From positions 1-64,000 of the forward strand of contig JAQWIT010000008.1 of NCBI GenBank assembly GCA_029248745.1: DNA of 64,000 nt. Reading direction: 5' to 3'. Position 1 is the first letter of the stretch; each line of letters begins with the position of its first letter. This document shows positions 30,574 to 33,522 of the stretch, in pieces. Position numbers and translations under genes: made by a program. Source of the DNA: Gammaproteobacteria bacterium (GTDB lineage Bacteria; Pseudomonadota; Gammaproteobacteria; Nitrosococcales; Methylophagaceae). The notes beneath the pieces were generated by a model, which was not told where the DNA came from, made no database searches, and worked only from the letters and a program-made list of their open reading frames with translations.

Positions 30574-31059
30574 TTATTTTCGCTGATAAACCATGAAGCT
30601 ATAAGGATATTCATTGTTATCATCAGCCGGGTGTTTCTCTTCTGATACACATCGCCATTCATCTTTATTCCATTCAGGAAACCAAGTGTCTCCGGCTAAA
30701 GTGGCATGTACTTGTGTCAGATAAATGATATCGACCATGGGTAAGCATTGCTCATACAACGATGATCCGCCCATAATCATTGCCTCTTCTGCATCCTGGC
30801 AAGCTTGTAAAGCCTCTGCTATTGAATATGTGACAATACACCCCTCTACTTGATACTGCGTATCAGAGGTAATAATTATATTATCTCTGCCTGGCAAAGG
30901 GCGCCCAATTGATTCATGTGTTTTTCGCCCCATAATAATTGGCTTACCAATGGTAGTATGTCTAAAATATTGTAAATCTGCAGATAATCGCCAAGGTAAA
31001 TCATTATTTTTACCAATTAATCCTGCTTCGTCTGTTGCTACAATAAGTGATAATTTCAT
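30574..31059 (-). CDS. folA: Dihydrofolate reductase
   Basis: MKLSLIVATDEAGLIGKNNDLPWRLSADLQYFR; IMGRKTHESIGRPLPGR; start moved to 31059 (161 aa). Confidence 0.93.
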   Translation of the reverse strand: MKLSLIVATDEAGLIGKNNDLPWRLSADLQYFRHTTIGKPIIMGRKTHESIGRPLPGRDNIIITSDTQYQVEGCIVTYSIAEALQACQDAEEAMIMGGSSLYEQCLPMVDIIYLTQVHATLAGDTWFPEWNKDEWRCVSEEKHPADDNNEYPYSFMVYQRK

Positions 31060-31150
31060 CAATTTGTCCCGTTCTTGATGCGCATAGAATACCACCAGAT
31101 GTATGAAGGATAAGATCTGTATAAATAGACTGATAAAGAAACGAACAAAC

Positions 31151-31288
31151 TGTTGATAACTTTTCCTGTGGATAACTAGGTAACTTATACACAATTAGTC
31201 AGACAATTTAAGGGATCATTATCCACAAGATGATACTATTTAAATCACTGAAACTGCATCATTAATTAAGTTTATCCCCTTATCCACA
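31151..31288. promoter_or_regulatory. Cluster of DnaA-box-like 9-mers between folA and priA
   Basis: TGTTGATAA 31151-31159, TGTGGATAA 31167-31175, TTATACACA 31185-31193, TTATCCACA 31219-31227, TTATCCACA 31280-31288; AT-rich 31313-31343. Confidence 0.6.
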
Positions 31289-31344
31289 GGCATTAATCAT
31301 CAACAACAAACATCTTTTAAATAAATACTATTTATTATTAATCT

Positions 31345-33522
31345 ATGCCGCGTATTGCTGAAATTGCTATTGCCTGTCCTTTAAGACAAACATTCGATTA
31401 TTTAATTGAATCGGATTTTGCTGATATTCAAGTTGGCTATCGGGTGAAAATACCCTTTGGATCCCGTGAAGTTATAGGCTTTGTTATCGCAATTAAGGAA
31501 ACAACAACTCAAAAGGTAAAAGCAATAACGCACTGTTTTGAACAAGAACCCGTCATTACACATGAACTCGCTCAATTAATTCAATGGACCAGTGATTATT
31601 ATCACCACCCCATTGGTGATTGCTATCAAGTTGCTTTACCCAAAAAAATACGATTAGGTGGTGACAATAAACTAAAAACCGTGTCCTCATGGTCTCTGTC
31701 AAAAAATGATTTACCGGATAAATTTTTAGGGGAAAAACAACAAGCGATTGTTGATTTACTATTACAATCAGTCAATAAAACCTTACTTCAAACGCAGATT
31801 TATGAACAATTAGGTTCTTGTCTTAGTACGCTTAACCGTTTAGCTGAGTTGGGGGTGATCACTACTTCAGAATCGGTTAAAGGACCTTTTATTAACCAGC
31901 TCCCAGATCCCTTTAAAAAACTTAATAGTGAGCAGTCACATACTGTAAAAACTATATGTGATAATAGTGATTCATTTGATGTTAGTTTAATTCAAGGTAT
32001 TACAGGAAGTGGTAAAACAGAGGTTTATATTCAATTAGCGGAAAAAATGCTTGCAAAAAAACGGCAAGTGTTGGTTTTGATTCCAGAGATTGGATTAACC
32101 TATCAAATTGTTGCCCGTTTTAAATCACATTTGTCGGCAAAGATCGTCGTTATTAACTCTTCGATGAATGAAACCGATCGCCACCAAGCTTGGTTATTAG
32201 CCAATAAAGGTTATGCCGATATTGTGATAGGTACCCGTTCTGCTGTGTTTACGCCTCTGGCAGATTTAGGACTTATTATCATTGATGAGGAGCATGATAG
32301 TTCTTACAAGCAACGAGATAGTCTACGTTACCATGCTCGTAATGTTGCATTAATAAGAGCAAAGCAGGCTAATATCCCCATTGTTTTAGGTAGTGCGACA
32401 CCTTCGCTAGAATCGTTTTACCATGCACAAGCACAACGGTATCGTTTGTTATCGATGACAAAGCGTGCAACAGGGGCTGTATTGCCACAGGTTAAGTTAA
32501 TTGATAGTGAAGGTCCTCATGCTAGCAATGGCTTATCTTCAATCCTTTATAAAGCTATAGAGGCTGAATTAGCGAAAGATAACCAAGTTCTATTATTCAT
32601 TAATAAACGGGGTTATGCCCCCGTTCTTATGTGTCATGATTGTGATTGGCAGGCAGTCTGTCCTAATTGTGATGCCAAAATGATTGTGCATCAGGGACGT
32701 TATCAACTACGTTGTCATCACTGTGGTTTTAATCAACCTCTGATTCATACTTGCCCTGATTGTGAATCCAGTGATTTAGGCCATTATGGCGCAGGAACAG
32801 AACAGATTGAGCATAGTCTTCAAATGTTATTTCCTTCTGTGCCAGTTTTACGTGTTGATCGAGATAGTATTCAACAGCTGGGGGCCTTTTCTGCACTGGT
32901 CAATGAGATTCAACAAGGGGGTGCGAAAATATTAGTGGGCACCCAAATGTTGGCAAAAGGACATGATTTTCATGATGTCACTTTGGTTGGGGTATTAGAT
33001 GCGGATCATGGTTTGTTCAGCGCAGACTTTCGTGCAATAGAAAATTTGGCACAACTCATTATTCAAGTCACTGGACGTGCAGGAAGAGGGGAAAAAGCTG
33101 GGCGTGTTTTCATTCAGACAAGTCAAATAGAGCACCCTTTCTGGAAAAAACTACTGAGTCATAATTACCATGCTATTGCACAAGATTTACTGACAGAACG
33201 AGAAATGAGTGCTATGCCGCCTATCGGTTCTTTATGTGTTATTCGTGCAAGAGCCAAAGAACAATCGTTATCACTGGCTTTTTTAACAGAAGTGGCAGTG
33301 TTACTCAATCAGGCCAATCAACAGGGTGTTTTGGTATTAGGCCCGGTACCTGCGATGATGGAAAAACGGGCGGGATATTTCCGTGCTCAATTATTATTAA
33401 CAACACAACAACGTAAAGTCTTACATCAGTTACTAGACCATACCTTACCCGCTATTTCAGCTTTGAAAAGCAGCCGAAAAGTGAAGTGGTCAATTGATAT
33501 TGATCCGATGGATTTAATGTAA
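31345..33522 (+). CDS. priA: Primosomal protein N' (PriA helicase)
   Basis: GITGSGKTEVYIQL; IIDEEHDSSYKQ; zinc-binding CHDCDWQAVCPNCDAKM; QVTGRAGRGEKAG. Confidence 0.96.
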   Translation: MPRIAEIAIACPLRQTFDYLIESDFADIQVGYRVKIPFGSREVIGFVIAIKETTTQKVKAITHCFEQEPVITHELAQLIQWTSDYYHHPIGDCYQVALPKKIRLGGDNKLKTVSSWSLSKNDLPDKFLGEKQQAIVDLLLQSVNKTLLQTQIYEQLGSCLSTLNRLAELGVITTSESVKGPFINQLPDPFKKLNSEQSHTVKTICDNSDSFDVSLIQGITGSGKTEVYIQLAEKMLAKKRQVLVLIPEIGLTYQIVARFKSHLSAKIVVINSSMNETDRHQAWLLANKGYADIVIGTRSAVFTPLADLGLIIIDEEHDSSYKQRDSLRYHARNVALIRAKQANIPIVLGSATPSLESFYHAQAQRYRLLSMTKRATGAVLPQVKLIDSEGPHASNGLSSILYKAIEAELAKDNQVLLFINKRGYAPVLMCHDCDWQAVCPNCDAKMIVHQGRYQLRCHHCGFNQPLIHTCPDCESSDLGHYGAGTEQIEHSLQMLFPSVPVLRVDRDSIQQLGAFSALVNEIQQGGAKILVGTQMLAKGHDFHDVTLVGVLDADHGLFSADFRAIENLAQLIIQVTGRAGRGEKAGRVFIQTSQIEHPFWKKLLSHNYHAIAQDLLTEREMSAMPPIGSLCVIRARAKEQSLSLAFLTEVAVLLNQANQQGVLVLGPVPAMMEKRAGYFRAQLLLTTQQRKVLHQLLDHTLPAISALKSSRKVKWSIDIDPMDLM

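Follow-up and report, generated by a model that had tools for sequence, protein, structure and literature searches.

The 64-kb window analysed here (64,000 nucleotides) opens contig C12 of a 20-contig MAG from a methanol-eating marine bacterium. Its PriA matches Methylophaga or Piscirickettsiaceae/Methylophagaceae MAGs, which places the organism in Methylophagaceae, a family of marine methylotrophs. At 31 kb from the left end of the contig is a 285-bp intergenic gap (31060–31344, 69% A+T) flanked on the left by folA, which encodes dihydrofolate reductase on the minus strand (30574–31059; PF00186, 212 bits), and on the right by priA, which encodes the primosomal helicase N' on the plus strand (31345–33522; PriA_3primeBD, PriA_C and Zn_ribbon_PriA; PF17764, PF18074, PF18319). 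Beside folA the window also encodes a 79-aa DUF5669 protein (PF18918; 30331–30570) that is kept in G027 and G198.

Between 31151 and 31288 the gap contains four strict DnaA boxes (TTATNCACA) and one near-match. Boxes A and B are on the minus strand: box A (31151–31159; motif TGTTGATAA) reads TTATCAACA in the window genome versus TTATCCACA in nearly all relatives, and box B (TTATCCACA, 31167–31175) is inside the motif CCTGTGGATAAC. The remaining three are on the plus strand, with box C (TTATACACA, 31185–31193) inside the motif CTTATACACA, followed by boxes D (31219–31227) and E (31280–31288), both TTATCCACA; column conservation from A to E is 0.99, 1.0, 0.96, 0.88 and 0.84. A possible weak box, TTATACAGA, is located further left on the minus strand (31117–31125; 2 mismatches; alignment A1), where the surrounding GTATAA is kept in the family and the columns 31118–31126 are conserved at 0.79. 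Box E adjoins a proposed DNA unwinding element (31289–31344, 80% A+T), and in a nearest-neighbour stability scan no 50-bp segment of the entire window is less stable than 31291–31340, directly after this box. Within the proposed element, a motif at 31295–31307 is conserved at 0.90 (family consensus AATCATTAACATC). The motifs that a preliminary description of this DNA had placed between folA and priA were all recovered in position, followed by the AT-rich stretch that runs up to the priA start.

The box clustering is not due to chance. The window-wide total of strict boxes is unremarkable (6 observed versus 3.6 expected) and it is the clustering that is informative: there are 71 strict TTATNCACA sites in the whole 1.73-Mb genome, the folA–priA cluster is the only place where three or more are close together, and when 71 sites were placed at random 20,000 times, 4 never fell together in any 122-bp stretch. 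An Rfam search returned no matches.

The group is also conserved; its absence from the folA–priA gap of relatives was part of what the preliminary description had named as refuting. Boxes at near-fixed spacing are present in all 27 relatives and all 32 family genomes with a readable gap (two overlapping sets), at distances of about −194, −178, −160, −126 and −64 from priA. Box columns are 84–100% conserved (96–100% for A–C) versus 52–54% for the B–C and C–D spacers. In G436, from another genus of the family, the contig is broken beside folA and the boxes are retained. An exception is the small genome G402 of this family, with 1.1 Mb and a reported completeness of 100%, which has neither a box triplet nor a DnaA-box cluster, and no PriA match at 1e-100. 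Searching 369 genomes of the class for the A–B–C triplet yielded matches only in Methylophagaceae, apart from a single match with 3 mismatches and unrelated flanks in G241. That box group (C9, 99993), in a genome of another family, is situated between glucose-1-phosphate thymidylyltransferase-like and tRNA methyltransferase-like genes and may be an unusual origin or a chance occurrence.

The genome sequence was sampled in stretches. We used base composition at third codon positions as a measure of strand bias. G versus C was scored on the own coding strand of mechanically called ORFs and fitted with a maximum-likelihood changepoint model having separate rates for each strand. For the contig of the window (141 genes), the best changepoint falls between 31194 and 31345 (dLL 260), within the gap, and in two other genomes it falls in the homologous folA–priA gap: between 528544 (priA) and 528847 (folA) in G027 (dLL 301) and between 1987802 and 1988120 in G414 (dLL 28). 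Plus-strand genes of the contig average −0.15 to the left of the gap (C-biased, 28 genes) versus +0.30 to the right (G-biased, 62 genes; Mann–Whitney p = 6e-13). The GC-skew analysis that had been suggested for this locus thus finds a switch exactly at the folA–priA gap. In the contig of the window, where only 31 kb precede the gap, the switch is clear only after strand correction, the uncorrected GC skew left of the gap being about zero and not negative. On the 918-kb contig of G027, plain GC skew passes from about −0.15 to about +0.15 around the gap; it stays near zero for some 30 kb on the folA–his side because the genes there are head-on. In the single-contig genome G419 (3.1 Mb), the skew changes sign near 300–330 kb, with priA at 303–306 kb, and again near 1.6–2.0 Mb, roughly opposite the first change. 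Both G419 and G414 show only a weak skew. The preliminary description had cautioned that gene orientation does not switch here as expected at an origin. This objection loses its force, as strand composition does switch and the plus-strand genes to the left carry the reversed third-position bias of lagging-strand genes; the his and tat genes simply run head-on to replication.

The conventional addresses, dnaA and gidA, were evaluated as candidates and rejected. On the contig of the window, gidA is at 90.7 kb, 60 kb from the gap, and dnaA is at 116.1–117.1 kb, 85 kb from the gap. Skew remains positive past both, and therefore neither is the origin. No box cluster and no skew switch was found at either locus, and the dnaA–dnaN gap contains no box when up to 1 mismatch is allowed, the nearest being inside dnaN. 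A dnaA-linked oriC, with its boxes between dnaA and dnaN or between rpmH and dnaA, does not describe this genome.

Several features by which an oriC is recognized come together in the folA–priA gap: a box cluster, an adjacent unstable AT-rich element, a composition switch, and a conserved position and architecture, in a genome that encodes DnaA with a standard DNA-binding signature (PF00308, 233 bits; the translation contains GGRDHTTVLHACRK). The computed evidence for the position of the origin is strong, and we conclude that the gap is very probably oriC, a standard DnaA-dependent chromosomal origin of this Methylophagaceae bacterium. Among the options first considered for the cluster, that of a replication origin is the one strongly supported by the skew switch at the gap and by box conservation. 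Following the standard DnaA mechanism, DnaA-ATP would bind boxes A–E and a filament extending from box E would melt the AT-rich element at 31289–31344; according to the general oriC model, DnaB would then be loaded at the melted element and two opposite forks would depart, one via priA–argS–ftsN and the other via folA–tat–his. A second DnaA-family match (C15:21186, 239 aa) is probably Hda which, if so, would allow regulatory inactivation of DnaA.

DnaA-titrating or reloading loci of the datA or DARS kind are, as is established for E. coli, intergenic clusters of DnaA boxes too, and the preliminary description had listed a titrating or reactivating site among its options, in which case the true origin would be elsewhere. 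Such loci, however, mark no leading/lagging switch and have no unwinding element, whereas here three genomes have their composition switch exactly at the gap, and box E is immediately followed by an unwinding element; moreover, the genome has no other box cluster to act as oriC. We consider a datA- or DARS-like locus very improbable. DnaA is a known transcription regulator, and the gap is upstream of both folA and priA so that the boxes must overlap their promoters, which raises the alternative of a DnaA-controlled divergent promoter region devoid of origin function. Such a region would predict neither the strand switch nor five boxes held at fixed distances together with a conserved AT-rich element, and a scan for sigma-70 promoters and terminators gave nothing above chance, with no clear sigma-70 promoter in the box region; regulation without an origin therefore seems even less probable, although DnaA control of priA and folA may coexist with the origin as an additional role. 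Finally, a composition switch produced by inversion or mis-assembly, its breakpoint falling by chance beside a DnaA-box cluster, is hardly credible despite the MAG assembly and the near-zero uncorrected skew left of the gap, as the independently assembled G027 and G414 share the gene order and the switch point, gene order around the boxes in G417 is identical to that of the window, and independent single-contig genomes already imply the same order across the gap.

Comparison with other origins places the proposed Methylophagaceae oriC among known elements while setting apart its address. E. coli oriC sits at gidA–mioC. The folA–priA gap is like it in having the same DnaA-box consensus, a strong A+T element beside an outer box, and a location apart from dnaA, but it differs in gene neighbours and in the order and orientation of the boxes, and the gidA–mioC location is not shared, gidA of the window genome being 60 kb off. 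SeqA and the many GATC sites of E. coli are a further difference, with only 2 GATC in the 285-bp gap. SeqA was not found in G000, G027, G414 or G034 (the E. coli control was positive), and therefore sequestration as in E. coli would not be expected. The preliminary description's comparison with E. coli R1, R2 and R4 stands for the single boxes but does not extend to box order, location or SeqA control.

The basal unwinding system consists of a DnaA box, a GC spacer and DnaA-trios (PMC8287927). Box E of the window is similarly followed by GG and then by the conserved AT-rich motif, but in a set of 28 sequences the (.A.)n trios do not exceed chance. If at least three (.A.) trios are required in the 16 bp next to the box, the window has three after box E with a 4-nt spacer, and the family mean is 2.6 versus 2.9 for shuffled sequences. 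A Francisella paper, the only one of its kind found, has oriC, priA and folA together, with priA merely listed near oriC. The literature search found no work that joins Methylophaga and oriC, although automatic origin databases (DoriC, BOriS DB) may list this origin, and judging from their titles, none of the publications on Methylophaga with 'origin of replication' is about its chromosome. Two genomes of other gammaproteobacterial families, G043 and G048, have DnaA-box groups upstream of priA with 12–14 bp spacing and a different layout; we rejected these as the same origin, as the spacing differs and G048 is without a skew switch.

The sister family (G034, G038, G039), which belongs to the same order, has its box cluster beside dnaA, in the dnaA–dnaN gap, and no boxes upstream of priA. 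The DnaA-box consensus is the same and priA is about 15–25 kb from dnaA and the cluster, so that the wider neighbourhood is shared, yet the placement of boxes is the reverse of that in Methylophagaceae. The simplest reading is a change of origin address within this shared neighbourhood: the common ancestor probably had its origin at dnaA–dnaN, and it would have moved to folA–priA in Methylophagaceae, the direction being inferred. The folA–priA address and box layout appear to be specific to Methylophagaceae, while the kind of element is known. As the proposed unwinding element doubles as the priA leader, it is possible that priA transcription is coupled to initiation. A more far-reaching idea, which we regard as rather doubtful, is that of a family-wide move from dnaA–dnaN to folA–priA in which the unwinding element also serves as the priA leader, such that origin opening and DnaA binding would directly set the supply of PriA, the replication-restart helicase.

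A family-wide origin at this position would be missed by dnaA-first annotation, as dnaA is 85 kb away in the window genome and some 145 kb away in G419. The correct origin is needed both to linearise a genome and to estimate growth rates from peak-to-trough read depth. Set against the sister family, the folA–priA origin would also provide a clean natural case of a bacterial origin changing address. In G417, a single-contig Methylophagaceae genome of 3.1 Mb, priA beside the intact box cluster is in two overlapping frames with internal stops (C1, 1438928–1440984), reflecting either a frameshift or a sequencing error, and in G003 the conserved cluster has two extra strict boxes as neighbours, some 300 bp upstream (C1, 302833–303182).
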